Assembly: GCA_018823705.1 (NCBI GenBank)
Contig: JAHJHP010000090.1
Location: 1-44,212 of the forward strand
Direction: 5' to 3'
Source of the DNA: Candidatus Omnitrophota bacterium
GTDB taxonomy: Bacteria; Omnitrophota; Gorgyraeia; 2-01-FULL-45-10
DNA: 44,212 nucleotides
Shown here: piece by piece, positions 1,351-41,974 of the stretch
How the letters are laid out: every line of letters begins with the position of its first letter
Numbering within the stretch: the stretch's first letter is position 1
Translations under genes and position numbers: made by a program
The notes under the pieces: model-generated
The model's input: only the letters and a program-made list of their open reading frames with translations
Database searches by the model: none
Told to the model about the DNA's origin: nothing

Positions 1351-1368
1351 TTTTGAATTTCGCTAATT

Positions 1369-2022: not shown

Positions 2023-2024
2023 TT

Positions 2025-7604: not shown

Positions 7605-7606
7605 AA

Positions 7607-8311: not shown

Positions 8312-8314
8312 ATT

Positions 8315-8509: not shown

Positions 8510-8548
8510 AATTTTCTCCATTTTAGCTTGACATACTATCAATATAAT

Positions 8549-8606: not shown

Positions 8607-8614
8607 ACCGCTAA

Positions 8615-8859
8615 ACTTATGGGTCGGCAAGGAAATTCAATGGAGCTAAAGTAGCTAATAAAAACGAGATTGCTTCTCCGCCAGCTTCGCTGGCGGATCG
8701 CAATGACGATGGAATAGATTCCCGTTTCCGTGGGAATGACAACTGGGTCGATAATCCGGATATCCAAAAGCTACTTGATGTTGTTTCTGAAATCATCGCA
8801 AATGAATATATAGAGATAGCTAAGAAAAACCGCGATGTGTTTTGTAGAGGAGGCGAAGA

Positions 8860-8863: not shown

Positions 8864-10605
<1,742 letters not shown>

Positions 10606-19455: not shown

Positions 19456-20685
19456 TCAGGCCCGTATAAATACTTCCCTGGCGGCAAGCGCCGCGGCGCC
19501 CATAACGATAGCGTTTTCGCCCAGGAGGCTCGGCACGATCTTCACAATGTTCATGGGTTCCTCAAAAGCAAATTTCCTGACAGACTCCTTCAGTGGATCG
19601 AGGAATATATCCCCCGCCTTCTCTATGCCGCCGCCGATTATAACTACCGCCGGATTCAGGAAATTTATAAAATACGCCACCCTCACACCGAGATCCCTGC
19701 CGGCAGAGCGAATTATCTCCAATGCGACCTTGTCATTCTTTCCGGCGGCATCTATCACGTTCTCTTTTGTTATCGCGCCGGCGTCGCCCCCTGCCAGAGC
19801 CAGTATCTCCGTCGGTGTCTTCTTTGATATTGCTTTTCTAGCTTCGAAGACGACCCCCAGATCCACTCCCCACGGCCTCATAAAAGTATGCTTTTTATGT
19901 TGCGCTCTGTCATTGTCTTGAGACGACTTAAGCATTATCTGCGGTTCCCCCGAACAGCCGCTGGAACCTATATAAACGTCTCCATGGACGATTATGCCGC
20001 AGCCCACATCTGAATAAACGTAGATCAGGTTATCGACATCGGCTCCCGGATTCAGCGCTTTCTCGCCGAAGACAGCGCAGGAAGCGTCATTCCCTATAAA
20101 TACGGGAGCGTTAAACCTCTCTTCAATAGCTTTTGTGAGCTTTAGAAAATTTACCTTGGTCCTGCCTCTGGCGGGATCCGTATCACGAATGGTTCCGGAA
20201 TAGTAATCCACTATACCGGAGATACCTATGCCCACCGCCTTTACAGCTTCACGCTCGATCTCGGATTTAACGATCACATCTTCTATTGCGCTCGCGATGC
20301 CCGGCGCCAGATCCTCCATATTGACCGACGGCCTCGGATAGCTGATCTCGGAAACCATCTTTATATTGAGATCCGATACTATAGCCGATATGGTCTCAGG
20401 GCCGATATCCACACCGACGACATATCCGATTCTGGCATTAAGCTCCAAAAGCTCAGGCCGTCTCCCGCCTGACGATATGTCGAGCCCTATCTCGAGCACC
20501 ATCTTCTTATTGATATAATAGTCAAGATAGTTAGTAATCGTGACTATATTGTAGCCCAGGGTCCTGGATATCTCAGCTTTTGAAATAGGGCTGCGCTTAC
20601 GTATTAGCTCCAGGATCGCGAGATTTTTACGTTCCCTGTCCTGCATTATGTGGTACGTAAACATGCCTTCGGATTTTATAGCCAT
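19456..20685 (-). CDS. ROK-family transcriptional regulator (NagC/XylR-like)
   Basis: This 409-residue protein has an N-terminal winged helix (about 15-75; SKAEISRTLGYNIVTITNYL) and a ROK domain with the GVDIG phosphate motif near residue 90 and a C-terminal VVIIGGGI. Such proteins are usually repressors released by a sugar. The usual ROK zinc motif (GExGH plus CxCGxxGC) is not seen: the matching region reads GSSGCSGEPQIML, so sugar binding may be altered. The start ATG 20685 has AGGAGAT before it and overlaps the upstream gene by 10 bases. It follows the sugar permease genes and likely senses the glucan or its product. Confidence 0.85.
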   Translation of the reverse strand: MAIKSEGMFTYHIMQDRERKNLAILELIRKRSPISKAEISRTLGYNIVTITNYLDYYINKKMVLEIGLDISSGGRRPELLELNARIGYVVGVDIGPETISAIVSDLNIKMVSEISYPRPSVNMEDLAPGIASAIEDVIVKSEIEREAVKAVGIGISGIVDYYSGTIRDTDPARGRTKVNFLKLTKAIEERFNAPVFIGNDASCAVFGEKALNPGADVDNLIYVYSDVGCGIIVHGDVYIGSSGCSGEPQIMLKSSQDNDRAQHKKHTFMRPWGVDLGVVFEARKAISKKTPTEILALAGGDAGAITKENVIDAAGKNDKVALEIIRSAGRDLGVRVAYFINFLNPAVVIIGGGIEKAGDIFLDPLKESVRKFAFEEPMNIVKIVPSLLGENAIVMGAAALAAREVFIRA

Positions 20686-21447: not shown

Positions 21448-22332
21448 CTACCCTTTCATCCCCGTCAATTTTATCCCCTCTACAAAAAATCTCTGATTAA
21501 ACAGGAATATTATTATGATCGGCACCATCGTTATCAGTGAGCCCGCCATCAGAAGCCCCCAGTCCGGCTGGGCATACTGGTAGAGCTCCTGAAAATACGC
21601 CAGGCCCACCGGCAGAGTCCTCTTCTCTATGGAGTTCGTAACCAGAAGCGGCCACATAAAACTTACCCAGTTTCCGAGCGACACAAATATCGTGAGCGTC
21701 GCTATGGCGGTATGCGACAACGGCATTATGACGCGCCAGAATATACCCCAAAGGCTGCATCCGTCTATCTTGGCCGCGTCTTCGAGGTCTCTCGGAATAG
21801 TCATGAAGAACTGCCTGAGTAAAAAAGTGCCATAAGCGGAAAATATGGCCGGTATTATGAGCGCTTTATATGTATCGATCCAGCCAAAAGCGCGCATAAG
21901 CGCGAATACCGGTATCATCGTTACGGAGCCGGGTATCATCATGGTGGCAAGATATGCGAAAAATATCTTATCCCGGCCGGGAAACTTCAGGCGCGAAAAC
22001 GCGTATGCCGCTCCCGCGCTCGTCACAACTTGTCCAAGCGTTACACAGATCACGATGAATATGCTATTGGCATAGAACCTGGCAAACGGCACGACCCTCC
22101 ATACATCTATGTAATTTTTCCAATATACGGGGCTCGGGAACCATTGTATATCTCCGACGTTAAATATGAATACGGATGAGTAAGGCTTAAGGGATGTTGA
22201 AAGCATCCATATGAAAGGGATCACCATAGTTACGCCGCCGATAATGAGAAAAGCGTATATGGCGCTCTTATTTAAAAAAGTGCGCGCCCTGCCGCTGACC
22301 AGTTTCTTCTTTATATCATCTCTGTATTGCAT
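21448..22332 (-). CDS. Sugar ABC transporter permease, MalG-type
   Basis: This 294-residue protein has six predicted membrane helices and the cytoplasmic EAA-type loop DAAKIDGCSLWGIFWRVIMPLS, which docks the ATPase. It is of the CUT1 family that imports oligosaccharides and polyols. It pairs with the MalF-type gene 18 bases upstream. No ATPase gene is in the window, so a shared (MsmX-like) ATPase elsewhere is likely. Confidence 0.93.
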   Translation of the reverse strand: MQYRDDIKKKLVSGRARTFLNKSAIYAFLIIGGVTMVIPFIWMLSTSLKPYSSVFIFNVGDIQWFPSPVYWKNYIDVWRVVPFARFYANSIFIVICVTLGQVVTSAGAAYAFSRLKFPGRDKIFFAYLATMMIPGSVTMIPVFALMRAFGWIDTYKALIIPAIFSAYGTFLLRQFFMTIPRDLEDAAKIDGCSLWGIFWRVIMPLSHTAIATLTIFVSLGNWVSFMWPLLVTNSIEKRTLPVGLAYFQELYQYAQPDWGLLMAGSLITMVPIIIIFLFNQRFFVEGIKLTGMKG

Positions 22333-22350
22333 CTTATGCCCTTTGCGCGA

Positions 22351-23295
22351 TCAATAATGTGAATATTGAACCAGTTTACCGCCGAATCTCCAATTAAAGA
22401 CAGTCACCATAAATATCACTATGAATACAAACCAGGCTATGCTCGCCGCATAACCCACATGCTGCCAGCTGTAAAGATGATTATATATAAGGTATTCAAG
22501 CGTGGTGGTTGACCGGTCAGGCCCGCCGCCGGTCATTATGTAAGCCTGCATGAAACCGCCCTGAAACCCGCCTATTACCGCCATCACAAATACGAAAAAT
22601 GTCGTAGGGCTTATCATGGGCCAGGTCACATTCCAGAACTTATGCCAGGGCCCGGCTCCGTCGATCTCCGCCGCTTCGTACAGCTCCCTGGGAACCCCCT
22701 GAAGGGCAGCCATGAATAGTATCATATTGTAACCGCCGAGCATTATCCATAGGCCCATAAACATCAGCGACGGCTTTGCCCATGCAGTCGAAGTAAGCCA
22801 TTCCACCCTGCTGATTGGTATCGCCAGCATATCTCCCACTTTCAGAAAGAGAGTGTTAAATAATCCGAATTCCGAATTATATAACCATGCCCAGAGGAGA
22901 CATATCGCGACACCGTTCGTTATTGTGGGTAAAAAAAATATCGCCCTGAATATGTTTATAAATCTCACCTTATTATTCATGACAAGCGCCAGCCCAAGCG
23001 ATGCCATTATCTCAATAGGGATTATGATCATCAGGAAGAGTGTATTGCCTACGCATTTCCAGAAGAGAGGATCGTTCGCGGTGATGGCCCCGGCTTCCGT
23101 ATGGAAACCGAGAAGATTTATAAAATTCTGTAATCCCACGAATTTGGGGGCGGATAACATGTCCCAGTCGACAAAGCTCAGGACGAGAGATAGAGCGACA
23201 GGCACAAGCGTAAATACCATAAATCCCAATAAGTTCGGGAGCAGGAAGAGGTAGCCGGCCACAGCTTCTTTTTCGGAGCCTCTTATCCTTGCCAA
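22351..23295 (-). CDS. Sugar ABC transporter permease, MalF-type
   Basis: This 314-residue protein has six membrane helices and the EAA loop YEAAEIDGAGPWHKFWNVTWP. It forms the channel with the MalG-type partner (CUT1 family). The start is TTG at 23295 with AAAGGAG at good spacing. The gene sits directly after the GH189-like secreted enzyme, which suggests that products of that enzyme or of GH144 are imported. The only binding protein visible lies about 15 kb away at 38982. Confidence 0.93.
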   Translation of the reverse strand: MARIRGSEKEAVAGYLFLLPNLLGFMVFTLVPVALSLVLSFVDWDMLSAPKFVGLQNFINLLGFHTEAGAITANDPLFWKCVGNTLFLMIIIPIEIMASLGLALVMNNKVRFINIFRAIFFLPTITNGVAICLLWAWLYNSEFGLFNTLFLKVGDMLAIPISRVEWLTSTAWAKPSLMFMGLWIMLGGYNMILFMAALQGVPRELYEAAEIDGAGPWHKFWNVTWPMISPTTFFVFVMAVIGGFQGGFMQAYIMTGGGPDRSTTTLEYLIYNHLYSWQHVGYAASIAWFVFIVIFMVTVFNWRFGGKLVQYSHY

Positions 23296-23368: not shown

Positions 23369-25435
23369 TTATTCAAAGAAATCTTCAACCTTTAAGAGTT
23401 CCTCGGCATTTTTAGCTATAGGGTCACTATGGAACCTCTTCCTTATGGCTCCGTCATTGAGATAGTTGTTAATGGCGATAAAGCTCAAAGCCTGGTCCAG
23501 GCATAGATACTCCATAGCAGCCCTGCCGGTAAAAACATCTATCGCGTCATAAAAACCATACTCGCCATATGCATTGAATTTCGCCGCTATGGCCCTTAAA
23601 TTATTAATGGACTCCTTAGGCGTGAATTCGAGAGAAAGAAACGAGGCGTGAGGCGTAATAACGCCTCCCTTGTACCCCTTTATTCCGAGGACTTTTACGC
23701 CATATTCGGAATACCCTCCTCCGGGAACGCAGGACGGAGACATGCCGAATACCGGATAGCCCAATTCTTCCAGCGCGAACTTCACCTGGATCTTCGCGTG
23801 CCGCTCATCATTTAGCCCCAATCCTTTCGGCGCAAGAGCTTTCTCATCTATTATGACCGTCGGCATCAAAGCTTCGAACATGCTCCCGCCCCAACTTGGC
23901 ACGAATTTTATGCCTTTATACTCATAGTAACCACCCCACACTTTGTATCCCAAATATGTTTTTTCTTTCCTATCCCGCGGCATCTGAGTCTGCCATGGCC
24001 AGGTATCGGGAAAAGTTCTCAGCATACGGAACCAGTGATCCTTCGGCACATCACCTTTTCCTATGGCTATGTAACTTATGGCCCTGGGCTCGGTGTATAA
24101 AGCTCCGTATTGATATTCCGAATAATAATCTATATTAGTGTAGAAACCATGGTACATATGCCCTTCGACGGGATCGTAGAAGAACGAGAAGTCCATGGCA
24201 TCCAGTAATTTTTGACATATCGGGTTTAGTTCTTCGGGAAAGGCGTTCTTTGCCACGATGATCCCGGCCGCCAGCCAGCCGCTATCCACAAAAGATATGA
24301 AATTGCTGGTCCTCTGGAATATCGTGACGTCGTAATAATTATAAGGAAACCCGTTGTACTTCTCCAGCTTTTCCACGGACCCTATTGTGGAGCTCAGGCG
24401 CCTCACCGCGTCTTCCTTCGAAATAAACCCGAGGTCGTATGCCGACACCACGCACATAAGATATACGCCGATGTTCGTAACGTTGGTATAGTCCCCTATA
24501 AACGTATCCTCGGAAACCGTGGTCTTTTCATTGAATTGGATATTGTCAAGAGGCAGATCGTGCTCTTTATCCACGATCTTATCGAAGTACTTCCAGGTAT
24601 CTTTGGCGACCGCCAGCAGGAATTCGCGGTCATCTTTCGGAAATGATCTCTTAACAAAGACTTCCCTGGGGAATCCGTAGAGCCTGGCTATGAGGAACCT
24701 GGCAAACTTTTCGCGGTTATTCTCTACATCGGTCTTCTTTTTTTTATGAGGAACCACGTCGGTGATACTGGGCCCGGGCTGCCAGGTCTTTGTGAAGGCA
24801 AAGTCGTCGAAATACAGAACTCCTTCGGCTTTGTCAACGCGCCTTTTCTCAAACGATATCACGAACTCTTTCAGCTCGCGCCAATCCGATATTCCATTCA
24901 TAACATTAAGCGGGATCGATATCTTCTGCCATCTGCCCGTGACGCCTTTTACGACATAGCTTGCCTTTATCGTTTCGTCACGGCCGTCCCGATCTGTCTT
25001 TATCTTTTTAAACTCGATCTTGAATATAGTAGTATAACCTTTATCCTCATCACCTTTAACCCAGAATTCGAAATGATCATAGAGCGATGCGTTCAGGTCG
25101 CGAAGCTGGGTCCAGAAACCGTTCGCGGTGTCATCAGCAGAATTGACGTCGTATTCCAGTTTCAGCGATGAGCCGTTATTTCCGTACCTGACTTTATTAT
25201 CGATAGAGACTGCTATAGACTGGCCCATATCATCCGGAAACTTCTCCCATGTCCCGGACTCTCCGCCCAGATTATTGATAAGGCCTTCTCCGTTGAAATT
25301 CGCGATAGTTTGGGTCGGAAATTCGAGGGATTCCGCGCGGCTCTCTGCCGGAACGGCCTGTGTCGCCGTAGAGCTCATCATGAAGATAAATGAGATGAAT
25401 GGGACAAGTAGAGCTACTCTATATCTGTTGATCAA
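23369..25435 (-). CDS. Secreted protein: binding-like module plus glycoamylase (CGS middle-domain, GH189/GH144-like) domain
   Basis: This 688-residue protein has a signal peptide (1-28) and a binding-like module (about 42-222, ending GVLYFDDFAFTK). A large helical domain (about 250-688) resembles the middle region of cyclic beta-1,2-glucan synthases. Landmarks are LPLDNIQFN, TNVTNIGVYLMCVVSAYDLGF, FPYNYYD, VDSGWLAAG, SWGGSMFEALMP, VFGMSPS and TPHASFLSLEFTP. In classical synthases that part (recently GH189, the cyclising transglycosylase) sits between GT84 and GH94 in one chain; here it is a separate, exported protein. The start is TTG 25435. It lies 16 bases after the GH94-type gene and probably acts on the same glucan. 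Confidence 0.72.
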   Translation of the reverse strand: MINRYRVALLVPFISFIFMMSSTATQAVPAESRAESLEFPTQTIANFNGEGLINNLGGESGTWEKFPDDMGQSIAVSIDNKVRYGNNGSSLKLEYDVNSADDTANGFWTQLRDLNASLYDHFEFWVKGDEDKGYTTIFKIEFKKIKTDRDGRDETIKASYVVKGVTGRWQKISIPLNVMNGISDWRELKEFVISFEKRRVDKAEGVLYFDDFAFTKTWQPGPSITDVVPHKKKKTDVENNREKFARFLIARLYGFPREVFVKRSFPKDDREFLLAVAKDTWKYFDKIVDKEHDLPLDNIQFNEKTTVSEDTFIGDYTNVTNIGVYLMCVVSAYDLGFISKEDAVRRLSSTIGSVEKLEKYNGFPYNYYDVTIFQRTSNFISFVDSGWLAAGIIVAKNAFPEELNPICQKLLDAMDFSFFYDPVEGHMYHGFYTNIDYYSEYQYGALYTEPRAISYIAIGKGDVPKDHWFRMLRTFPDTWPWQTQMPRDRKEKTYLGYKVWGGYYEYKGIKFVPSWGGSMFEALMPTVIIDEKALAPKGLGLNDERHAKIQVKFALEELGYPVFGMSPSCVPGGGYSEYGVKVLGIKGYKGGVITPHASFLSLEFTPKESINNLRAIAAKFNAYGEYGFYDAIDVFTGRAAMEYLCLDQALSFIAINNYLNDGAIRKRFHSDPIAKNAEELLKVEDFFE

Positions 25436-25451: not shown

Positions 25452-28400
25452 TCATTTAAAAGGACTATTTTTAACGTCCCTCGTTACGCTCTTTACCTTA
25501 AGTCCGCCGCGCGGGCGATCAAGATCCTTCGGCAGGATCATCTGATTCTTTACCAGCGACGCTCCTATCACGCCTTCCATCGCCTGGCGAAGCATCCAGC
25601 CGGCTGCGCCGGTATATCCATGCCATATCATCCGTCCGGGCTCAAAGTTCGTTAGCACGTCCGCCGCCTGCTTATTCGGCTGGCCGCCATATACCTCAAT
25701 TTCTCCCGGTTTCATATGGGCTATAGGGGATATCTTCAGCCACAGCCTGTATGCAGTCGCCGCATACTCATCCGCTTTTACGCAAAGCCCCTGTCTTTCA
25801 AATTCCTCCGAAATGACGCGCGCGGCCCTGACAAGCCACTGGACACCGTGGCAATACATGCCGTTTTCGCGCACCCCTTCGGGATATTTACTGCTTCTGC
25901 CCAGATATGGTTTCGTATCTTCACGCAGAGCCGGCCATCCGAGCAATATGGCGTTATCTTTTTCAAGGATCTTAAGGGCTGTGTCAAATATGGTAAGCCC
26001 ACGTTCGAAGTTAATGCCGCTGGTCACCGCCCATGACGCCGTAAGCGCATCTATCTCCCATATCCCGCTGTCTTTCAGGCCTATCTCCGTACCGTCATCA
26101 TGTATGGCGCGCAGATATCTGTCGCCCCTCCAGGTTTTTTCCAGGGCGCTCTTCAGAGCATTCATTTTGTTCACGTAGTACTCTTTGCGGGCCTTGCCAT
26201 CTTTGGCCTCTATGATATCGACCATCTCTTTCAGTATATAATAGAGGAAGAACCCCAGCCATATGCTCTCCCCTATGCCTTCCGAACCGATCTCATCGAG
26301 GCCATCGTTCCAGTCTCCGGTCTGGATCAGCGGTAATCCGTTCTTACCTGTCCGCTGGTCCAGGATAAGATCTATCGACCGCATACAGTGCCTGTAAACG
26401 GTATCCGATCTCGTCGTCCTGTGATACATATGCCCCCACCCCTGTTTATTTCTGGGGAGTTTCGCAAAAGGAAACTCGCTCTCCACGTAAGATGTCATCT
26501 CGTCCAATATTGAATTATCACCCGTGGCCCTTATATATTCGGCCACTCCCCATGATAACCATACCGGGTTGTCGGAGGCGTGAGAACGGCAGGAGAATGC
26601 CGTCCGGCCGTCCGTCAGTGTAAAGAACCAGTGGAAAACATCTCCCTGTATAAATTGCTGGGACGCGTGAAGAATGATCTGCTTACGCGCAAGGGCCGGA
26701 TCGACCCAGATCAGGTTCACTGTGTCCTGAAGCTGATCGCGGAAACCGTAAGCGCCGCTGGTCTGATAGAAACCGCGCCTGGCCCAGATACGTTCGGCCA
26801 GCGCCTGATATTTAAGCCAGTTCTGATACCGGTCAAACTCGGGCTGATTGGTCTCGACCTTGATGGTCCCCATCAGGCTTAGCCACCATCGCCGCGTATC
26901 AGCCAACGACTTCTTAGCTCTTTCCGCATCTTTATATTTCCGGATTATCGCGCAGGCGTCTTTCTTATTATCGGCCTGTCCGAGAATGATCGCTATGGTA
27001 CGTTCTCCGCAAGCGGGGATCTCCACGGTTCCGATCAATCCGGCTATCTGAGCGTCATCGGATACTTGAGTTACGTCGGGCTTGCCGCTGCGCACCATGA
27101 ACGGGCGCGCGATATCCCCGTCGGATCCAAAGAATCTGCCGCGCTTTGTCTCAGCGCACTCGCCCGGTATGGACATGGATACAAATGCCGGTCCGGAGCG
27201 GAAGATGTTTCGGGGATTCTGATAAAACAGGGTGTTCATTTCCCTGTCATACCGTCCTCCCAGGGGGCCCGACTTTTCAGGCATGAACCCAAGTACCATC
27301 TGAAAATAAGAAGCTACTTTCATATGTACGGCGTGTCCAGAGCCGTTCCTCACTGTCAACAGGTAAACTCCCGTCGGTTCATCCGGCGGCACAAAAACTG
27401 TAAGTTCGGTCGAAACCGGGCCTTTGGCCATGCGGAATACGGCGCTTCCGTCTACGCTGAATTCGGATTCATATTTAGCGCTCTTATCGTTCAGAGGATG
27501 GTATGTCGGAGAATACCATTCATTGCCGGCCTCGTCATAAAGATAGATGGCTTCAGATGGGATCTCTCTTGTAACGGTATCGGCCCAATCGGGAGTAAGG
27601 CGGTTCTGCTGTGAATTACCATTACAGGACGTATGAAGGCCCCGGTTGGTCACCATCACGGAATGTATGGCATTCGATACAGCATGGTCGATCGGCCTGG
27701 GCGTGTATGGTGTATGGACGATCAATGAATTTCCGTCCTCGGAATGTGTAGAGTATGGCTGCGGAGTCCCTTGCGGGATCTCTCCGTGGCCAATCAATAA
27801 CGATCTCTTCTTTTCCGGCGCTTTCGCGGTGGAGTGCGCGCCCTGCGGATTCAGGTGTTCCTTAATAAGCTCAATGGCTTTATCCTTGTTCTTAGCATAC
27901 CCTATCATAAGGCGCACCGTCGCGGAAGCTTTTGGCCCTACCGCGGCATCTACGATGAAACTTCCGATAGGATCGAACGTCGGATACCCGATAGTATCAT
28001 GGCTGGGCATAAAGTCAAGGTTCTCCATTACGCGCGGGCTCCAGATGCTCCTGGCGCGGCCGATAAAATCGACGCGTGAAGTCAGAAACCCTTCCGTGGG
28101 AATATCTGATGCCAGTATCCCCGTCGACTTGGTAGCCTTCTGCCACGACAGGATAGCATTCACCGCGCCGGCATACTCCATTTCCGGATAGAGCCTGGCG
28201 TACTGCGTATGAAATCTGTCGTGTATCCCGCCGTTCAGCACCCACTCCAGATAAGGTATGATCTTTAAACGGCGCGCTCTATCGGTCAGGTTCTCGACGG
28301 TTACCTTCCATATTTCCACAGGGGAATCCTGATCCGGCAGACTGATATCAACGGTCGTCCTGACTTCATTGCTAACGTTCGTAATTTTCAGGGAATCCCC

Positions 28401-31400
28401 GCATTTTTCAATGTTGGACAGGGTGAACTTCCCTGCCGGGAAATTGCCCGCTATGGGCCATGCCCGCCGGCCGGAGCCGGGCGTCTCTGCGGTATCCGCT
28501 ATATATAATATCCTGCCGCAGGGATCGATCGTATCATAAGAGCGCCTCGTCACATCAATCTCCTTACCGGTCACTTCACTGTATATATCACCGTTCTCCC
28601 GCAGGACAACCTTGTACTCTCTGTTCGCCAGTTCGTAAGAAACGATCCGGCGTCTGCGCGCATTCCGGCTCAAGCGCCGGAGGAACGCGGATATGCATGT
28701 GCATACCAGTATGCCGCACGAGACGAGGATGACGATTTGAAATAATCCGAGAGACTGTATCGTGAAGATCAGCCCTTTACCTTCGGCCGCGTTTTGCATC
28801 GCCGTCGAAGTGCTCCAGGCATAATCCCACGCTTTACCGCGGGGAAGATAAAACGGGATCAGAAGGGGCGCCCATGTCGTAAAACGCTTCACGCTTTCCG
28901 GAATATATCTCTGCGCTGACGCGGGGCCTATGAAACGGCCTATCTTCTCATCGAGCTTATCCATTCCGATGAAACTCAGGTTTACCAGCGTGGCGACGCG
29001 CAGTCCCATATGGTCCATCCATATAAGAACACGAAACCAATCTAAGGCCAGAACCCATACGAATACCTGGAGGCTCCAGGCCTTGAACGCTTCCGGGGTC
29101 ATCGTTATATTATTAAAGATGGCGAAGAAGGTGCGGATCGCGCCATCCTGGTTATACCAGGTCGGCTCAGGCATCATCCTCAGGAATGTGAATATGATGG
29201 GTGACATCCATAGCCCCCATCGCAATACGTATATCATATGCTCGATCAGCTGGGCAAATCCGGCTTTCGAAAAGAAAAATTTAATGGGGGTCTTATCCTT
29301 GTCGAAAAATGCCTGTAGAAATACTTTGTTGATCGCAAAGAGCCATGCGGCGACAGACCAGTTGATGACGCCTGCCAGGGATTCGTTGAAAAGTAATTTT
29401 ACTCCGCCCGTATAACTACCCAGGTCTATACGGCCCCATTTATTGACCAGAGGATAAGTGATATAGTCGGCGGGCGGCAGGCCTGAACTGAGATATAGCT
29501 TGAACTTCTCTATGACAACCGGCACCTGAAGCGAATCAAGATAAAAGGCCGCAGCGCTTCCGATGAAAATTCCAAGAAGCGAATCTACGAAATATAACCT
29601 CCACGACTGTACCTTTCCCCTGCCCATGAAAGCATATACGACATCTCTCAGAATGCTCACGCCTCCTGATGCCAGAAAACCTATGGACAGTCCGAATATA
29701 ATGCGCTCCGGCATATTATGAGTGAACAGGTTAGTCGTAGCCATGTAGGTAAATCCGAAGCCGGCAATGGCCCCCCTGGCGGAAAGCGTAATATCGCTAT
29801 AGCTGTACCGCACCCGTTCAAAGAACCGCAGGCTGCCGTCAAAGCTCTCTATGATGGTTTTGATGAGCGGAAAGAGGGCTGCGCCGGATATGATACCGAT
29901 CACGATGGGCATAGCGGAGATGATCTTTTGCGATAACGGCGCGCTCAGTACCATACTGAACGAATAGAGGAGTCCCACTAATATAGCGCTGTATGCCATG
30001 CCTTTCTTTGTGCCCGCCATGATATGCCTGGATATAGAAGCCGACGAAGGAGCCATATGCTTGCCGGCGTCGAGCAACATTCCCGTTATAAGATAGACTT
30101 CGCCCCATAAACCGCCGTAAGCCAGCGCTGTCGTCAACATGCAGGCCAAAGCCCTGAGAACCACCGGAAGCTTTGCTATGAATGCGGCAGAACCGATATT
30201 CGCGATCACCGGGGCGATAACAACGCCTAAAGAGACGAGGATGATCGTAATATGAGCCTTGGACGCCTTGACAGCCTTAGCTTTTACCGCCAGGCCGATA
30301 CCGTTTGTAATAAGCTCATTGAATACGAGCACAACGATAAACCTGCCCATTATCTCTGCTATGGCAGGATAGCGTTGGAGAAGCCCGAATGTAAAACCGT
30401 TTCCCATCGTCTTCAACAGGCCCGCACTCCCCAGGAGAAGCAGCCAGTTAAAAAGATACGGTGTCCCGGCTATCATCGCGCCGGTAATAGCTTTTAAGTG
30501 CTTGCCTGAAGACGCCAGCGATCTCGCATTCGCGAAATGATATATGACAAAAGCCAGCGCGGAGATAACGTTACTCAGCATCAGCAGTTGGACCCATGAG
30601 GCGGGTGACTGCAGAAGTTCAAATCTGCTTGAAGACGCCGCCAGGATCCCTGATATTAAAATATTTTGAAACAGCTCTGCGCCCGTCAGATGCCTGCCGG
30701 TCAAAGAATACTTTAAGACTTCGGCTATAAGAGCGCCTATCAATCCGACCGCAAGAAAAGTTAAGCTGAGGCCGGCATCTAAAGGATTGGCCATTCCGGC
30801 GCTATAGATCTGTATCGCAAGGCCCAATACCATTACAACCGTCACGCCGTATAGGATATCCCTCTTGATGCCCGATAGAACCCATGCCTTCTTATCGGAG
30901 GGTTTCTTGCCAGGGAGCATTCCGCAGGCGGAAAATATCAAAGCCAGGAGAAGGCCCGATAGTAAGACCAGTCCTGCTTTTATGACTAGAGCGTACTTCT
31001 GTAAGGGCGTCAATTTGTAAAAATTAAGATCAAAGTAGATTATTCCATCGAGGCGCTTCTTATTGTCGGTCGGACTGACTACGAATACCACCTCACTGAG
31101 CTTGCCTATCCTGTCCCAGTCGATCGACTCCCTTATGTAGCTCCATCCCGACCCCGTCAAGCGCATGGCCGCTTTCTGAACGCCTCTGTCGCCCTTTATT
31201 TCGAGCTTGACTGTAACCTCGCGCAGTTGAACGGGATCCTGCAGTTTTATGCCGGCTATAACCGCGTCGACCAGGCTCGGGTTAAACCTGGCAGGATAAG
31301 ACTTTGTCCAGAGGCCTGCGATGGCGCCCGGGAATATGGCGTAGTCGAATTTTAAAACGTCTTTTTTTATTGTCTCTTCCGCTTCGGTGCTGACACCGCC

Positions 31401-31601
31401 TATCGCGGGGCCGATATTGAACATCCCGTTCTCTTCGGCTTCCAGCACACTGAAACCGGTCGGATCGTTTATTATAACGGCCCTCTCATCGGCTCCGGCA
31501 AGCGGCAAAACAGGAGCTGCCGGGAAGATCATCAGAACGCATATGGCAATACAGCTTACAAGGACGCTCTTCCTGAGCGATAATTTGCTACACTCCGTCA
31601 T
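25452..31601 (-). CDS. Giant membrane protein: binding-like module, ~18 TM helices and cyclic-glucan-synthase-type GH94 region
   Basis: This 2049-residue protein has four parts. A signal peptide (1-35) precedes a beta-rich module (about 50-200, ending LDGIIYFDLNFYK). Roughly 17-19 membrane segments (about 205-1000) follow, with no recognisable GT84 or GT2 motifs. The C-terminal half (about 1010-2049) has two tandem GH94 N-terminal-type sandwich domains and an alpha-barrel with GDWNDG (catalytic-type D1766), GMYCHGVQW and IWHGYTGAAGWM. This half matches the end of cyclic beta-1,2-glucan synthases, which resembles 1,2-beta-oligoglucan phosphorylases. A basic stretch (RRLSRNARRRR) after the last helix suggests a cytoplasmic GH94. 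I infer glucan handling coupled to membrane passage. Confidence 0.8.
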   Translation of the reverse strand: MTECSKLSLRKSVLVSCIAICVLMIFPAAPVLPLAGADERAVIINDPTGFSVLEAEENGMFNIGPAIGGVSTEAEETIKKDVLKFDYAIFPGAIAGLWTKSYPARFNPSLVDAVIAGIKLQDPVQLREVTVKLEIKGDRGVQKAAMRLTGSGWSYIRESIDWDRIGKLSEVVFVVSPTDNKKRLDGIIYFDLNFYKLTPLQKYALVIKAGLVLLSGLLLALIFSACGMLPGKKPSDKKAWVLSGIKRDILYGVTVVMVLGLAIQIYSAGMANPLDAGLSLTFLAVGLIGALIAEVLKYSLTGRHLTGAELFQNILISGILAASSSRFELLQSPASWVQLLMLSNVISALAFVIYHFANARSLASSGKHLKAITGAMIAGTPYLFNWLLLLGSAGLLKTMGNGFTFGLLQRYPAIAEIMGRFIVVLVFNELITNGIGLAVKAKAVKASKAHITIILVSLGVVIAPVIANIGSAAFIAKLPVVLRALACMLTTALAYGGLWGEVYLITGMLLDAGKHMAPSSASISRHIMAGTKKGMAYSAILVGLLYSFSMVLSAPLSQKIISAMPIVIGIISGAALFPLIKTIIESFDGSLRFFERVRYSYSDITLSARGAIAGFGFTYMATTNLFTHNMPERIIFGLSIGFLASGGVSILRDVVYAFMGRGKVQSWRLYFVDSLLGIFIGSAAAFYLDSLQVPVVIEKFKLYLSSGLPPADYITYPLVNKWGRIDLGSYTGGVKLLFNESLAGVINWSVAAWLFAINKVFLQAFFDKDKTPIKFFFSKAGFAQLIEHMIYVLRWGLWMSPIIFTFLRMMPEPTWYNQDGAIRTFFAIFNNITMTPEAFKAWSLQVFVWVLALDWFRVLIWMDHMGLRVATLVNLSFIGMDKLDEKIGRFIGPASAQRYIPESVKRFTTWAPLLIPFYLPRGKAWDYAWSTSTAMQNAAEGKGLIFTIQSLGLFQIVILVSCGILVCTCISAFLRRLSRNARRRRIVSYELANREYKVVLRENGDIYSEVTGKEIDVTRRSYDTIDPCGRILYIADTAETPGSGRRAWPIAGNFPAGKFTLSNIEKCGDSLKITNVSNEVRTTVDISLPDQDSPVEIWKVTVENLTDRARRLKIIPYLEWVLNGGIHDRFHTQYARLYPEMEYAGAVNAILSWQKATKSTGILASDIPTEGFLTSRVDFIGRARSIWSPRVMENLDFMPSHDTIGYPTFDPIGSFIVDAAVGPKASATVRLMIGYAKNKDKAIELIKEHLNPQGAHSTAKAPEKKRSLLIGHGEIPQGTPQPYSTHSEDGNSLIVHTPYTPRPIDHAVSNAIHSVMVTNRGLHTSCNGNSQQNRLTPDWADTVTREIPSEAIYLYDEAGNEWYSPTYHPLNDKSAKYESEFSVDGSAVFRMAKGPVSTELTVFVPPDEPTGVYLLTVRNGSGHAVHMKVASYFQMVLGFMPEKSGPLGGRYDREMNTLFYQNPRNIFRSGPAFVSMSIPGECAETKRGRFFGSDGDIARPFMVRSGKPDVTQVSDDAQIAGLIGTVEIPACGERTIAIILGQADNKKDACAIIRKYKDAERAKKSLADTRRWWLSLMGTIKVETNQPEFDRYQNWLKYQALAERIWARRGFYQTSGAYGFRDQLQDTVNLIWVDPALARKQIILHASQQFIQGDVFHWFFTLTDGRTAFSCRSHASDNPVWLSWGVAEYIRATGDNSILDEMTSYVESEFPFAKLPRNKQGWGHMYHRTTRSDTVYRHCMRSIDLILDQRTGKNGLPLIQTGDWNDGLDEIGSEGIGESIWLGFFLYYILKEMVDIIEAKDGKARKEYYVNKMNALKSALEKTWRGDRYLRAIHDDGTEIGLKDSGIWEIDALTASWAVTSGINFERGLTIFDTALKILEKDNAILLGWPALREDTKPYLGRSSKYPEGVRENGMYCHGVQWLVRAARVISEEFERQGLCVKADEYAATAYRLWLKISPIAHMKPGEIEVYGGQPNKQAADVLTNFEPGRMIWHGYTGAAGWMLRQAMEGVIGASLVKNQMILPKDLDRPRGGLKVKSVTRDVKNSPFK

Positions 31602-31767: not shown

Positions 31768-33579
31768 TCACTTCACTACAATATTTATAACCGTATCTCT
31801 GGCTAAATCTTTTCTCACGCCTTTATTCGGGACGCGCACAAGGCCAAAGTCGTCGACTTTAACTGTCATCTTATAGGTGCCCGGCTCATTCGGCGCCTGC
31901 CATATCTTGACATCCGTCTCTTTGCCGTCGGCAAAGTTACCGCCGTCTACGGACCATCGGAGCAGGAGCAGGTCTTTTCCAGTCTCTTCCTTTATCATCT
32001 TCGGAAGCCTCGACTGATCATCTTTGTCGATCGTATATTCATTGAACTTATCCTCATCCACCAGGCCCTGTATCGCAAATTGTATTTTAGCGAGCTTATT
32101 CACTTCCATGCGAAGCGAACCGTCCTCGGCCTCAGTAAGAACCGGGGACTCTTTTTGATCCGAAGAACCCGCCATCGTCGGTGATATTTTGACGTCGATC
32201 CCCTGATAGGGATCCCATATCTTATATGTCTCCGTGGCATCGTTCCCGAACGCCGGCGCAGCATTATTTTTCCTTATCTCATTGATATCGTCCATTATCG
32301 TCCGCGCGGCGTAAAAACAGCTGCTGGTAGGGTCTATCTTCTTCAGCCTATCCTCGGCTGTATCATAATTTTTCGCCCCATAGTAAAGCATCGCCATCAG
32401 GATCTGCGCGTAATCGCCGGTATCCTTTCTGTAATATTTGTCTATTAAAGACTGTATGCTCTCCAGCGCTTTGTCGCGCGGCAAATTCTCATAATATACT
32501 TTTGCGAGCATCTCAAAGGCCTTGTCAAACCAGACGCTGGTTTTATACTTCTCAAGGAAGTCCGTAAGCAAAGAGATGGTCCTTATATTGTCTTTCATGT
32601 AGTATGAAGCCAGCGCAAGCCTGTAACTGCAATAATCGGCGGGTGGCAGATCGGAATATCGGTCCATATACAGTGAATAATATTTTTTCGCCTCTCTGTA
32701 CTTTCCTGCCGCAAAATATTTCTCCGCCACACCCATCATCCTGGCGGCCATATCTTCCTTATTGTAGTAAGCGGGAGCTGAAGCCATATACTGTTCGTAC
32801 AGGTTGGCCGCCGCTTTCAAATCGTTCTGCTCAAAATACTGGTCAGCTGATATCCTGATCTCATCAAGCACTCCCCTGGCTGTTTCGGGATCAACCTTTG
32901 AGGCATAAATGATCTTCAGTTTTATGGCGTGCTTCGGAAAGCCAAGTTTCTTCAGCCTTTCGAAAATATTTTCAAGCTCTTTCTTATTAATCCCGGCATC
33001 ATCGCTGTATTTGGCGATAAGGCCGGCTATCAGGTCGAATATCGCATCCGACTTTTCGGGCTGGAACTTTTCTTTGAAGATAATAAACCTTAACAGGTTG
33101 GCGTCGATGACCAGGCCCTTGGATGCCGTTGAAAGGCCTGCTTTATCAAGATAGTCCATCGCCTCACTGAAATACTTATCGTTTACGGACATGTATAGGC
33201 GCCCGGCTTCGATATCATTATTTTTGGAAAGGGCTGAGAGCTGGTCAATCCTTGCCCTGGCCATCGCGTAATTCAGATAATCGCTATTATTGAACGTGGG
33301 CTCCCCTGCGAGCGCGGCCTGCGCGTCGGCTATAAATTTTTCATAATTTTCGTAGGTGCCGGTTTCGGAAAACGCCTCTTCTATAAGAACCCTTAACGCC
33401 TCCGCATCCGTAGCCGCGTTTATATCCTGTATGATGCCGTCAAATTTGCATGGCGGCAGCGTTTTTTTCTGTTCGTCAGTGGCCGTCATGTCTTCCTGCG
33501 GATAGACTGCAGAACATACGCTCACGGTCAAGACGGATACGATAGACCCGACGACCGCCAATAATTTCAAATATCGCAT
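31768..33579 (-). CDS. Secreted TPR-like repeat protein with C-terminal beta-sandwich
   Basis: This 603-residue protein has a Sec signal (MRYLKLLAVVGSIVSVLTVS, cleaved near SVCSA). Many TPR-like helical hairpins (about 60-430; e.g. AANLYEQYMASAPAYY, REAKKYYSLYMDRYSDLP, EMLAKVYYENLPRDKALES) follow. A C-terminal region (about 500-603) has a PKD-like WSVDGG...PNEPGTYKMTVKV segment. I start it at ATG 33579 because AAAGGGTGAT precedes it; a GTG at 33588 is also in frame. It overlaps or abuts the upstream GH144 gene (TGA at 33585) and likely works with it. It may scaffold periplasmic proteins; no enzyme motif is seen. Confidence 0.7.
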   Translation of the reverse strand: MRYLKLLAVVGSIVSVLTVSVCSAVYPQEDMTATDEQKKTLPPCKFDGIIQDINAATDAEALRVLIEEAFSETGTYENYEKFIADAQAALAGEPTFNNSDYLNYAMARARIDQLSALSKNNDIEAGRLYMSVNDKYFSEAMDYLDKAGLSTASKGLVIDANLLRFIIFKEKFQPEKSDAIFDLIAGLIAKYSDDAGINKKELENIFERLKKLGFPKHAIKLKIIYASKVDPETARGVLDEIRISADQYFEQNDLKAAANLYEQYMASAPAYYNKEDMAARMMGVAEKYFAAGKYREAKKYYSLYMDRYSDLPPADYCSYRLALASYYMKDNIRTISLLTDFLEKYKTSVWFDKAFEMLAKVYYENLPRDKALESIQSLIDKYYRKDTGDYAQILMAMLYYGAKNYDTAEDRLKKIDPTSSCFYAARTIMDDINEIRKNNAAPAFGNDATETYKIWDPYQGIDVKISPTMAGSSDQKESPVLTEAEDGSLRMEVNKLAKIQFAIQGLVDEDKFNEYTIDKDDQSRLPKMIKEETGKDLLLLRWSVDGGNFADGKETDVKIWQAPNEPGTYKMTVKVDDFGLVRVPNKGVRKDLARDTVINIVVK

Positions 33580-33584
33580 GAGGA

Positions 33585-35873
33585 TCACCCTTTCTTCCCG
33601 GTAAATCCCGCTTTTACCAGAGAATTCTGAATATACTCATTCTTCATGAAATTTTTCCATACAAACCCTGTGCGAAAATTCTCTACAGGAACAAGTATCA
33701 TCCCCACGCCTATTCCGTAATAGGTGGGCGCATACCAGTTCAGGTCCAGATTAAAAGAATCCTTAAGGCCGTACTGTCCCCATAATCTGGGGTGTGTCAT
33801 GTACATATATTTTAACGCAGATGTCGCTAAATAGGGAGTGAAAACTATGGATCCGGCAGGGCCGGTCGGAGATATCGTGCCATCGTATTGCGGCTCACCG
33901 CTTCCTGTCGGAGGAGCGCCGAAGTGCATTATATATCCGCCGGGCCTGGCCATCGATGTTATTCCCCAGCTATTAGGGCCGTACCCCTTGAACTTATCCG
34001 CGTTATCGATACAAAACTGCCTGTTGGCCAGAGTAGCGTTTGTAGTATTTTCAAACCAGTCGACTCCTTGCCTGTCAACTATATTGCGCAGATCAAACCA
34101 GAGATGGGCATATTGATATGAGAAGAGAGCGCCGTGCCATGTAAAAATGAACGGCTTGCCTGTCTCATAAGCGGCGGAATGCCTGGCCCAGGTATAAAAA
34201 ACCTCCGGGTCTACGGGATGCGTGGGAGACCCTATTGCAAGGAGGCTGATAAGTATGGATTCATCCGTATAAAAATCCCAATACGAATCAAGGAACCCTC
34301 TCTCCGGAGACCAACCCATAGAAAAATTGTTAAACCAGGGCCCCTCCTCCAGGGACAGGAACTTTTCCCATTCGACCCTCTTATATATTTCTTCCGCCTT
34401 CTTTTTGACTTCGCCGCCGAAATACTCACCGGCTGTAAGCGCGCCGCAGACGAGTATCGCCGTATCTACGGTCGATATCTCGCTCTTTCCTGCGCGTTTA
34501 GCGGTGTGCTTTCTTAAGAAATGGTAGAAGAATCCGAACCTGCCTTCCGCCAGAGGTTCTTCCTCCGGTGTCCGGGGCAGGAATGTGTCGAGCGTCGTGA
34601 TCGCCCTTTTCCTGGCTTCGTCTTTATCGATCCATCCTCTTTCAGCTCCTATACACAACGCGGCAAAGCCTATTCCTGTAGAGGCTATGCTTGCGTCGCC
34701 GCCGCCTGAAGTATCGGCGAAAAGCCCCGTATTCGGATCCTGATGATCCTTAAAAAATTCAAACGCCTTCTTCTCTATAAGATTTAAAAATTCGTCATCG
34801 GTGATGGGCCGAACTCCGCAGTCTATGAGCACCTCCGTGGCTTTCTCCGCCCCTCTTATGTCTACGGCTACCGCTCTCAACTGGTAGTTGTACAGCTCCC
34901 TTGAATTATCCGGCTCCCAATCAAACTTATGGACATTCCCGCTCATATCATAGTCGACGCCTATAGTCCTCCAGGAGTCCCCTTTGTCCGCTGAATATTC
35001 AAATCTTACGCTCTCTAAAAAAGGGTTTTGATAGAAACTCTCGGACTTTATCTCGATCTCATTGGCGCCGCTAAAAGTAACGCACTGTTTGGCGCTTATG
35101 CCGTTTACTTTAAACGATAACTCGTCCGGAGGAGCTATCTCTCTCCTGTCATCTTCGTTCCGGGAGAGCACATCTTCCGAGCGGTTTCCAAAGAGGATGT
35201 CATCTATGTATATAAGGCCCTTTTTAAGGCCTGCTTTATTTTCAAATACAAATACCAGCTCCGACATCTTTGACCAATCCGTTATTTTACCGAACGCCTT
35301 GAGAGGTATTACCACCTTACTCCAATCTTTCGATATTATTCCGCCGCCGATAAAAGCGTTCACATATACATAGCTGGTTATATCCAGGCCATACGAAAAT
35401 ATGCCATCCCCGTTCACGTCCTGATGAAGCTCTATCTTAATATCGCTGACATCCTGCGCGCCCTTGATCCAGAATGACAGATAATTGCAGTTAGAAATAT
35501 CGAGGGGTTCCGTAGATCCGGCCTTGCCGGGGATCTCCCTGCCGAGCTTTATCCAGTAAAAAGTAAATTCACCGAGCCTTTCCACATCGTAATCCAGCGC
35601 TACCGCGCTGCCGGTATTACCTTTTATATAACCTTCGTCCTGAATCATGGACGCGAAAACGGTCCCCGGCTTATTATCATCTCCCCCCGACAGGCCTCCG
35701 AGATTCGTATATAGAGAACCGCCGTTGTAATCGGCTAAAATTACCGGTTTAATGAACCTGGTTGTCTTTCGCGGAAGTTCCTGCGCCATCGGTGTCGCGG
35801 TAAAAGCGATATTGCAGAGAAGCTGAAAGCAGGCGGCGACTGCTATCTTCTTTAATACGGGGACAGATATCAT
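33585..35873 (-). CDS. Secreted GH144-like beta-glucanase with N-terminal binding-like module
   Basis: This 762-residue protein has a signal peptide (1-30) and a binding-like module (about 47-232, NLGGLSGG... GLIYIDDILF). An Ig-like linker domain (about 250-340) leads to a C-terminal glycoamylase/GH144-type domain (about 355-755). The last holds GFFYHFLRKHT, SEISTVDTAILVCGAL, FSMGWSPERGFLDSYWDFYTDESILISLLAIGSPTHP and FSYQYAHLWFDLR. GH144 enzymes are endo-beta-1,2-glucanases releasing sophorose or oligosaccharides. The whole domain aligns with the protein at 41971, so the two are paralogues with different accessory parts. The catalytic residues were not assigned. Confidence 0.82.
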   Translation of the reverse strand: MISVPVLKKIAVAACFQLLCNIAFTATPMAQELPRKTTRFIKPVILADYNGGSLYTNLGGLSGGDDNKPGTVFASMIQDEGYIKGNTGSAVALDYDVERLGEFTFYWIKLGREIPGKAGSTEPLDISNCNYLSFWIKGAQDVSDIKIELHQDVNGDGIFSYGLDITSYVYVNAFIGGGIISKDWSKVVIPLKAFGKITDWSKMSELVFVFENKAGLKKGLIYIDDILFGNRSEDVLSRNEDDRREIAPPDELSFKVNGISAKQCVTFSGANEIEIKSESFYQNPFLESVRFEYSADKGDSWRTIGVDYDMSGNVHKFDWEPDNSRELYNYQLRAVAVDIRGAEKATEVLIDCGVRPITDDEFLNLIEKKAFEFFKDHQDPNTGLFADTSGGGDASIASTGIGFAALCIGAERGWIDKDEARKRAITTLDTFLPRTPEEEPLAEGRFGFFYHFLRKHTAKRAGKSEISTVDTAILVCGALTAGEYFGGEVKKKAEEIYKRVEWEKFLSLEEGPWFNNFSMGWSPERGFLDSYWDFYTDESILISLLAIGSPTHPVDPEVFYTWARHSAAYETGKPFIFTWHGALFSYQYAHLWFDLRNIVDRQGVDWFENTTNATLANRQFCIDNADKFKGYGPNSWGITSMARPGGYIMHFGAPPTGSGEPQYDGTISPTGPAGSIVFTPYLATSALKYMYMTHPRLWGQYGLKDSFNLDLNWYAPTYYGIGVGMILVPVENFRTGFVWKNFMKNEYIQNSLVKAGFTGKKG

Positions 35874-36070: not shown

Positions 36071-36682
36071 TTACTTGTTCTTCGTAAATCTGACATCATC
36101 AATATAGACAACGCCTTTTTTATTCGAAGCTATCCTGTCTTCAAACACGATAACAAGCTCTGCCAGATTGGAGAAATCGGTTATCCCTTTAAAATCTTTC
36201 AGTGGAATAACAATATCCTGCCACGTATCTGTGATGTTGGTGACGTAATAACGCCCGACCTGCTTGGAGGCGTTCTTCAGCTCTACTTTAAATACGGTAG
36301 TATAGCCGATCTTTCCGTCGCCCTTCACCCATATCGAGAGATTGTCATACTTTGAGGCATCGAAGTTCTGCAGGAACATCCAGAACCCGTTATACGCGGG
36401 ATTTTTTGAATCGACTGAATAGTCCAGTTTCATCGCAAACCCCGTCGCCCCGCGCCTATTCACGCTATCGAACGCCTCGCTGCACCCTTGAGAGAAATCT
36501 GTGGGATCTTTGCTCCATGCCCCAAAATCCCCGCCTATATTATTAGGCTTCTCTCCGGTATTAAAATCTGCGACCAAAAATTCGCTCCCGGCCCCCTCAA
36601 CATCGGCTGCGCTGGAAACTCCGGCCGCTAAAATCACCGCCGCGGCCACTAACATCGCGGCTAAAACCATCTTCTTTGCCAT
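36071..36682 (-). CDS. Secreted stand-alone carbohydrate-binding-like module
   Basis: This 203-residue protein has a Sec signal peptide (1-25, cut near VSSAAD). A single beta-rich module (about 33-203) is very close to the N-termini of the proteins at 23369 and 33585: NNIGGDFGAW, KLDYSVDSKNPAYNGFWMFLQNFDASKYDNLSIWVKGDGKIGYTTVFKVELK, and GVVYIDDVRFTK. The fold resembles CIA30/CBM-type sandwiches that bind glycans. No catalytic residues are evident. A strong ribosome site (AAAGGAGGAG) suggests high expression. It may be an accessory sugar-holding protein for the GH144 and GH189-like enzymes; binding is inferred only. Confidence 0.75.
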   Translation of the reverse strand: MAKKMVLAAMLVAAAVILAAGVSSAADVEGAGSEFLVADFNTGEKPNNIGGDFGAWSKDPTDFSQGCSEAFDSVNRRGATGFAMKLDYSVDSKNPAYNGFWMFLQNFDASKYDNLSIWVKGDGKIGYTTVFKVELKNASKQVGRYYVTNITDTWQDIVIPLKDFKGITDFSNLAELVIVFEDRIASNKKGVVYIDDVRFTKNK

Positions 36683-38247: not shown

Positions 38248-38256
38248 GGCCGGTAA

Positions 38257-38928
38257 TTACTCTTCCTTCAGTATGTATCCCCTGCCGCGAACCGTATGTA
38301 TGAGTTTCTTCTTAGACCCGGAGTCTACTTTATTGCGCAGATAATTGATATAGACATCTATCACATTTGTGAAGGTGTCGAAATCGATATCCCAGACATG
38401 CTCGGATATCATCGTGCGCGTCACTATTGTACCCTCGTTGCGCATAAGATATTCGAGCAGGGAAAATTCCTTAGTCGTAAGCTCTATCTCTCTGGAGCCC
38501 CTTATCACCTTATGCGTAAGCAGATCAAGCTCCAGGTCGGCGGCCTTCAGTTTCGTCGGGGTTCGGGCGTCTTTTTTTCTCAGCATGGCACGGATCCTTG
38601 CCAGAAGCTCTTCAAACGCAAACGGCTTCGTAAGGTAATCGTCGGCCCCTGAATCGAGCCCCATGACTTTCTCTTTTACGGTATTCTTTGCGGTGAGCAT
38701 GATGACGGGCGTCTTGATCTTTGCCCCTTTAAGTTTTTTGCACAGGGTCAGTCCGTCAAGCTTCGGGAGCATCAGATCGAGGAGGACCAGGTCGTAATCA
38801 TTAGTCTTGGCTAAGAAGAGGCCTTCTTCGCCATCGTGGGCCATATCCACGGCATAGCCTTCTTCCTTAAGGCCGCGCCTAATAAACTCCGCTATCTTCT
38901 TCTCATCTTCTACTACCAGTATACGCAT
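38257..38928 (-). CDS. OmpR/PhoB-type response regulator
   Basis: This 223-residue protein has a receiver domain (1-115), with acidic pair E7/D8, phospho-acceptor D51 in LVLLDLMLP and the K in LTKPFAFEELLARI, followed by a winged-helix domain (about 125-223; TTKEFSLLEYLMRNEG, VIDVYINYLRNKV). It binds DNA when phosphorylated by the kinase encoded 9 bases downstream. It follows the binding-protein gene by 53 bases. The paired system probably controls this glucan cluster, but no repeated operator was identified. Confidence 0.95.
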   Translation of the reverse strand: MRILVVEDEKKIAEFIRRGLKEEGYAVDMAHDGEEGLFLAKTNDYDLVLLDLMLPKLDGLTLCKKLKGAKIKTPVIMLTAKNTVKEKVMGLDSGADDYLTKPFAFEELLARIRAMLRKKDARTPTKLKAADLELDLLTHKVIRGSREIELTTKEFSLLEYLMRNEGTIVTRTMISEHVWDIDFDTFTNVIDVYINYLRNKVDSGSKKKLIHTVRGRGYILKEE

Positions 38929-41946: not shown

Positions 41947-41974
41947 ATATTATCACACAGCCACTGTTTGTCAA
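41947..41974 (-). promoter_or_regulatory. Promoter of the outer-membrane/binding-protein/two-component genes
   Basis: On the minus strand TTGACA (41974-41969) overlaps the stop codon of the upstream GH144 gene and is followed, after 16 bases, by TAATAT (41952-41947). An alternative -10, TATAAG, lies at 19 bases. The match at -35 is perfect and the -10 is moderate. It would start the run from 41893 to 36778. Confidence 0.5.

Follow-up and report, generated by a model that had tools for sequence, protein, structure and literature searches.

The stretch of DNA analysed here (the window) is a contig of 44,212 nucleotides (JAHJHP010000090.1) from a metagenome-assembled genome (MAG) of Candidatus Omnitrophota bacterium; the genome is 1.70 Mb in size and 99% complete, and its close GTDB relatives are likewise Omnitrophota MAGs. 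An open reading frame (ORF) at 25452-31601 on the minus strand, where the features of the window given below with dotted coordinates also lie, encodes a protein of 2049 amino acids that joins, from the N to the C terminus, a signal peptide, a module resembling carbohydrate-binding modules of family 11 (CBM11), a polytopic membrane domain and a complete GH94 half of the type found in cyclic beta-1,2-glucan synthases (CGS). The original prediction, made from the sequence, had placed both the frame and the aspartate D1766 (in the motif GDWNDG) correctly. As read from the sequence, the anatomy is solid: the gene encodes a predicted membrane-embedded phosphorylase-type GH94 protein (the fusion, below), with a membrane domain of an unprecedented kind and without a GT84 or GT2 glycosyltransferase module.

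The C-terminal half had been assigned to the GH94 end of CGS proteins, and a Pfam search of the fusion bore this out. It matched PF17167 (Glyco_hydro_94 barrel) with 219.7 bits (cut-off 27, E 8e-65) and PF06165 (GH94_b-supersand) with 213.6 bits (cut-off 23, E 4e-63), the latter in two copies placed separately at 26979-27701 and 27900-28631. Three parts can be delimited: the first sandwich, corresponding to GP1 of Cgs (residues 990-1260, 27822..28634; hmmsearch against residues 1543-1813 of 8rf9, E 4e-9), the second supersandwich (residues 1301-1541, 26979..27701; PF06165) and the catalytic barrel (residues 1572-2013, 25563..26888; PF17167 and the Cgs alignment). A profile of 19 relatives aligned with Cgs 1543-1813, the first sandwich, and with 2034-2762, the remaining phosphorylase part; the Rossmann-like insert of Cgs has no counterpart in the fusion, leaving an alignment gap opposite Cgs 1847-2012. 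Cgs/NdvB was the top match in a PDB sequence search (365 bits versus 124 for cellobiose phosphorylase), and the profile of the GH94 half scored 447 bits against CGS versus 20 against LpSOGP.

GH94 phosphorylases attack the non-reducing end of their substrates, and the reaction is reversible. The residues expected to carry out this chemistry are intact: D1766 aligns with D2528, the catalytic acid of Agrobacterium Cgs, and D1622 with D2393, precisely the two positions through which the phosphorylase was inactivated in a study of that enzyme (PMC10901819). Both are invariant (100%) in 43 relatives, D1766 being the residue on whose retention the GH94 assignment had been made to depend, and the same conservation (100%) holds in this set for H1918 and T1997-G1998, candidate residues of the phosphate site. 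We infer that the GH94 half would phosphorolyse a beta-glucoside, probably a beta-1,2-linked one. In known beta-1,2 phosphorylases the reaction runs both ways, and added phosphate shortens the chains (PMC10901819, PMC11842490). The Pfam scan of the window's genome revealed no second GH94 and no second GH94 sandwich, so that no CGS is detectable there by these models and the fusion is the only phosphorylase of that kind in the genome.

The other end of the protein begins with a signal peptide (residues about 1-41, 31479..31601), judged by eye from a hydrophobic segment at 13-31 followed by AGA-DE. What had been described as a binding-like module was recognized by Foldseek as a CBM11-type jelly roll, predicted to be periplasmic (residues 48-200, 31002..31460; CtCBM11 structures 1v0a and 6r3m at E 1e-4, with E 1.2e-4 and probability 1.00 for 1v0a). 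These residues gave no CBM match in Pfam, and the CBM11 likeness is therefore at the level of the fold only. Some relatives carry a second, diverged copy of the module ahead of the first, 31-40% identical to it.

Between the two ends lies the new polytopic domain (residues 200-985, 28647..31004). Its polytopic nature had been foreseen, with about 18 helices; counting by eye from the secondary structure of an AlphaFold2 (AF2) model and from loop charges (positive-inside rule) gave about 19, the first of them separable. The membrane-only model, computed from 43 sequences, five of them distant, is all helical (pLDDT 84.8, pTM 0.81). A model made first, which included the CBM, scored lower (pLDDT 76.4, pTM 0.72), and its Foldseek search was swamped by CBM matches and by spurious alignments of the CBM plus a helix (WLS/TMEM87A), so the membrane-only model was used. 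With it, Foldseek found no fold match in the PDB (best E 0.16, TM-score 0.11), and the domain has neither a Pfam family nor a PDB profile match.

As the GH94 half is closest to CGS, the fusion might be an ordinary CGS with an unrecognized GT84 or GT2 fold in residues 200-1000, yet this is highly improbable. When profiles were compared, the membrane domain matched the GT84 halves of three CGS proteins at a probability of 0.1%, versus 100% (E 1e-91) for the positive control, in which the GH94 halves were compared with CGS; the model is all helical; and a motif scan of the N-terminal half found no QxxRW and a single DxD (DKD), which is not conserved. Neither Pfam nor NCBIfam found the module in the fusion. 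At the sensitivity used, we rejected this explanation on the strength of the controlled profile comparison. The earlier statement that the N-terminal half holds no glycosyltransferase thus agrees with the Pfam, NCBIfam, PDB-profile, profile-comparison, motif and fold searches alike.

The predicted topology has 19 crossings, which would place the CBM outside and the GH94 half in the cytoplasm, the same sides as originally proposed. The last helix is followed by a basic patch (RRLSRNARRRR, 28647..28685), which would place the GH94 half in the cytoplasm and recurs as an R-rich consensus across 28 homologs. Naturally split forms bear on the other end: in four genomes, one of them (G092) a closed contig, the CBM part and helix 1, followed by a basic or polar tail, form a gene of their own directly upstream of a gene for helices 2-19 and GH94 (L134:5033-7219, 729 amino acids with four CBM copies; L135; L136/L037; L143:14580-15347). 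A split between helices 1 and 2 fits helix 1 running from the outside to the inside.

Conservation, taken as the mean frequency of the commonest residue in 43 relatives from Omnitrophota, Planctomycetota and two phyla known from MAGs, is unevenly spread over the protein. It amounts to 0.54 for the CBM and rises within the membrane domain from 0.57 (residues 200-430) through 0.67 (430-690) to 0.82 (690-940), while the GH94 catalytic region (1290-2013) reaches 0.79. Residues 690-940 thus equal or exceed the GH94 barrel in conservation, which makes it unlikely that the membrane domain is a mere anchor. Nearly invariant stretches of the domain (YITYPLVNKWGRIDLG, WGLWMSPII, PTWYNQDGAIRT, IWMDHMGLRVATLVNLSF and RYIPEAVKRF.TWAPLLIPFY) abound in residues of the sort found at sugar sites, and a number of them fall in loops that the predicted topology sets in the periplasm; the loops of the domain hold many W, Y, N, Q, D and R. 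Three such putative periplasmic segments can be named: the loop 688-732 with a short hairpin in the AF2 model (QVPVV..YITYPLVNKWGRIDLGSYTGG; 29406..29540, conservation 0.74, its side assigned from the positive-inside rule), the loop 807-835 with the nearly invariant LRMMPxPTWYNQDGAIRT (29097..29183, conservation 0.83) and the stretch 892-952 (RYIPEAVKRFxTWAPLLIPFYLPRG; 28746..28928, conservation 0.75).

To survey the fusion beyond the window, we searched 384 Omnitrophota genomes, of which 37 gave strong matches to the membrane domain. Every strong match that could be followed runs on into GH94, or stops at a contig edge or frame break adjoining GH94. More copies were found in MAGs labelled Elusimicrobia and Chlamydiota, and in their phyla, and the fusion is also carried by three finished Isosphaeraceae plasmids of the same replicon cluster (NZ_CP019083.1, NZ_CP042998.1 and NZ_CP011274.1), where it is annotated as 'hypothetical protein'. 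The MAG origin of the window and a frame that is split in a few genomes (L037; L039/G023; L141/G048) might have pointed to an assembly or gene-prediction artefact joining two genes. However, the intact fusion of about 1,850-2,500 amino acids recurs in dozens of genomes and in the three finished plasmids, which rules such an artefact out as next to inconceivable. In a midpoint-rooted tree of the GH94 half all 23 fusions form one clade (support 100/100) on a long stem, beside but separate from four CGS and also separate from soluble Omnitrophota GH94. This topology argues that the fusion arose in an old, single event and is not a CGS that lost GT84 recently.

Searching with the family profile also revealed distant relatives of the membrane domain (E 1e-18 to 1e-4) within giant ORFs of other Omnitrophota, those of family f4 (L099 at 6120-10541, and L100-L103; 4,782-25,048 amino acids), in which no GH94 was detected. 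The homolog in L099 keeps PTWWNQ of the loop 807-835. The long frames of the f4 genomes are not artefacts of N runs, as the stretches checked contain 0-100 N; a 26,995-amino-acid frame in genome G421, in contrast, is an artefact of masked N runs and was discarded. The occurrence of the domain in giant proteins without detectable GH94, together with the invariant polar and aromatic clusters at its predicted periplasmic face, would suit a catalytic membrane domain, such as a glycosyl or lipid-linked transferase whose active site faces the periplasm and which passes chains to the GH94 half or takes them from it. We consider this improbable, since no likeness to GT-C, GT-A or any other membrane transferase rose above noise among solved folds (GT-C DPY19, E 2.4, probability 0.04) and there is no conserved DxD/DxE motif.

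Compared with known systems, the fusion is a distinct arrangement. With Cgs/NdvB (GT84, a GH189-type cyclisation domain and GH94) it shares the GH94 half with both sandwiches and the catalytic acids, the character of a large membrane protein whose GH94 part faces the cytoplasm (predicted for the fusion), and the association with a GH189-like enzyme, which for the fusion is encoded next door. Unlike Cgs/NdvB, the fusion lacks GT84, the Rossmann-like insert and a cyclisation domain in the same chain, and it adds the periplasmic CBM11 module; its membrane domain is unrelated and has about 19 helices where theirs has 6. SOGP shares the predicted reaction and substrate, the GH94 fold and the catalytic acid, but is soluble, whereas the fusion is nearer to CGS in sequence and is joined to a membrane domain and a CBM. 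The soluble GH94 proteins of Omnitrophota (about 780-820 amino acids) have one sandwich and a barrel, about 30-36% identical to the fusion, but no membrane domain and no GP1 sandwich, and fall in a separate clade. One copy sits in a related cluster: in a close relative of the window's genome a soluble GH94 (L032:321-2732), about 30% identical to the fusion GH94, lies between an ABC sugar-binding protein and a response regulator, and this gene is absent in the window. The Isosphaeraceae plasmid proteins (WP_076351704.1, WP_148599143.1 and WP_156513202.1) have the full architecture at 48-49% identity over about 1,900-1,970 residues, and differ in that the adjacent partner is EeSGL1-like and not GH144 or GH189. 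In Ivanova et al. 2017 the gene on the P. borealis plasmid is counted among the GH94 phosphorylases; the text does not contain the word 'transmembrane' and leaves the membrane part undescribed (PMC5352709). In the literature searched no GH94 fused to a polytopic domain is described, in line with the original statement that no characterised protein has this layout. GH94 and beta-1,2-glucan loci as such were known; what these papers do not describe is a GH94 of the CGS lineage that lacks GT84 and is joined to a polytopic domain without a known fold.

In the window the fusion lies in a cluster with genes for enzymes of the beta-1,2-glucanase clan. The next gene (23369..25435) encodes a signal peptide, a CBM11-like module and the barrel of a GH189-like enzyme, a homolog of the CGS cyclisation domain (8wy1 TiCGS-Tg, E 2e-44; Cgs cyclisation domain, E 1e-42), in which the residues aligned with Cgs D1104 and E1300 are retained. 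PF10091 matches in the window's genome fall in other ORFs, none of them in the fusion. Two GH144 endo-beta-1,2-glucanases follow on the other side, one behind a CBM-like module (33585..35873; 8xul XcSGL, E 5e-65) and one of 421 amino acids (41971..43236; 8xul XcSGL, E 4e-79). A TPR protein lies directly upstream of the fusion (31768..33588), and the cluster further includes a secreted CBM11 protein (36071..36682; PF03425, E 2e-7), a two-component sensor kinase with its response regulator (36778..38928), an ABC sugar-binding protein (38982..40301), two BPD_transp_1 ABC permease genes (21448..23295; singly 21448-22332 and 22351-23295) and a ROK-family protein, a sugar kinase or regulator (19456..20685). 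No ABC ATPase gene was found in the window cluster. The sophoro-oligosaccharide-binding protein Lin1841 is among the matches of the ABC sugar-binding protein, but as one of many and not the best it gives no evidence for specificity.

Two further proteins of the cluster have no Pfam match. One of 256 amino acids (20676-21446), with one helix and the look of a CBM11-like jelly roll, follows the ABC permeases in relatives too; the other, a secreted protein of 522 amino acids with an aromatic C terminus and AQxASAQ repeats (40325-41893), is probably the outer-membrane barrel or porin of the cluster. Beside the glucan cluster, 262-10605 holds type I restriction-modification genes, a D12 methyltransferase, RadC and a large serine recombinase, and resembles an inserted island. 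Elsewhere in the window's genome (G000:C89, loci L074/L075) an ORF of 10,168 amino acids (1-30504 of its contig, minus strand) combines SecA-like ATPase domains, PG_binding_1 and OEP with a GH189-like domain (residues 3077-3510) that is circularly permuted, its C-terminal piece coming first; large ORFs of genomes G003 and G021 have the same order.

The association with glucanases extends to other lineages. By hand count, 20 of 40 genomes or records, representing at least 11 lineages, have a gene of the beta-1,2-glucanase clan within about 10 kb of the fusion, as against an expected share of roughly 5% (a rough figure, from about five such genes per 2 Mb). The neighbour is GH144-like in L134, L136, L139, L140 and L141, GH189-like in L106, L107 and L113, and EeSGL1-like in the Planctomycete plasmids, with a relative of the latter in L115. 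The plasmid partner, a secreted protein of about 700 amino acids without a Pfam match, had been considered as GH189-like, but BLAST gave no match and the best PDB match was EeSGL1 (E 8e-5); this weak likeness to Group 1 of the clan may mark a new branch. A GH189-like protein (E < 1e-100) is encoded in 34 of the 37 fusion genomes versus about 29 of 347 others (the latter counted by hand; Fisher p ~1e-27, without correction for relatedness).

The membrane part could conceivably serve only to hold the phosphorylase and to sense glucan via the CBM, while oligosaccharides arrive through the ABC permeases or other porters. The permeases and the sugar-binding protein, which are present in the clusters of the window and of its nearest relatives, the CBM placed outside and the nearby sensor kinase and response regulator all accord with such a scaffold or sensor. 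However, about 19 helices, with residues 690-940 conserved at least like the catalytic barrel, are more than an anchor needs, and no ABC importer is listed beside the fusion in the Planctomycete plasmids or was seen beside it in other lineages. We regard this explanation as rather unlikely.

We propose instead, with a little less than even confidence, that the fusion is a membrane-embedded beta-1,2-glucan phosphorylase that couples uptake of the chain to phosphorolysis in the cytoplasm. Outside the cell, beta-1,2-glucan would be shortened or remodelled by secreted beta-1,2-glucanase-clan enzymes, whether GH144, GH189-like or a relative, and the chain would be captured by the CBM11-like module together with the conserved loops that the membrane domain exposes to the periplasm. 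The membrane domain would then admit its non-reducing end inward, where the CGS-type GH94 half would use phosphate to release glucose 1-phosphate, so that inorganic phosphate would pull the chain in and no ATP would be spent. The proposal builds on the anatomy, the absence of a glycosyltransferase module, the GH94 acids, the neighbours, the single origin and the conservation; beta-1,2 specificity, topology, translocation, its inward direction and the coupling are what it would add to them. In a more general and more tentative form, which we would favour only with clear reservations, it amounts to a 'phosphorolytic group translocation', in which one polypeptide, with a membrane fold that has no precedent, would thread beta-1,2-glucan across the membrane and phosphorolyse it in the cytoplasm; phosphate, not ATP, phosphoenolpyruvate or an ion gradient, would drive uptake, or else glucose 1-phosphate would drive export.

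Since GH94 is reversible, the same machine could serve as a synthase and exporter: a CGS without GT84, in which GH94 would use glucose 1-phosphate to extend beta-1,2-glucan at the non-reducing end lying in the cytoplasm, the membrane domain would export it and the GH189-like enzyme would close the rings outside. The geometry would be that of membrane glucan synthases, the secreted cyclisation-domain homolog is the next gene and co-occurs with the fusion, no CGS is detectable in the window's genome, and SOGP makes long beta-1,2-glucan in vitro by reverse phosphorolysis (PMC11842490). Paludisphaera borealis, which bears one of the plasmids, however, is already equipped with a GT84 synthase according to a CAZy count (PMC5352709). 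The two GH144 glucanases, the ABC sugar-binding protein and the permeases of the cluster point to uptake, and in three phyla the partners are of the glucanase type (GH144, EeSGL1-like) and not of the cyclase type. In cells, phosphate normally exceeds glucose 1-phosphate, which favours breakdown. Export is thus unlikely, and three points make us favour uptake: glucanases and an ABC importer occur with the fusion, cellular phosphate normally exceeds glucose 1-phosphate, and three phyla pair the fusion with hydrolase-type partners.

Several observations weigh against uptake by the fusion. The membrane domain matched no known transporter or flippase in Pfam, in PDB sequences or among PDB folds; its presence in the giant ORFs without a detectable GH94 means that phosphorolysis need be no part of its basic role; in about half of the loci the stretch fetched contains no glucanase gene, some of the contigs being short; and in the lineage of the window the sugar-binding protein and the two ABC permeases could import oligosaccharides, so that the fusion need not act as a transporter in that lineage.

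The fusion breaks the assumption that GT84 accompanies CGS-type GH94. Even without transport, it defines a membrane-protein family of single origin that is absent from Pfam and from the solved folds and extends over Omnitrophota, Planctomycetota and two further phyla known from MAGs; the homologs of its membrane domain may offer a first handle on the role of the giant proteins. As the fusion is carried on plasmids of cultured Isosphaeraceae, these ideas can be tested experimentally. If the membrane domain does move glucan, transport would be driven by phosphorolysis, distinct from ABC, phosphotransferase-system, ion-coupled and synthase-coupled transport, and would provide an energy-saving route of uptake for small, energy-limited bacteria such as Omnitrophota.

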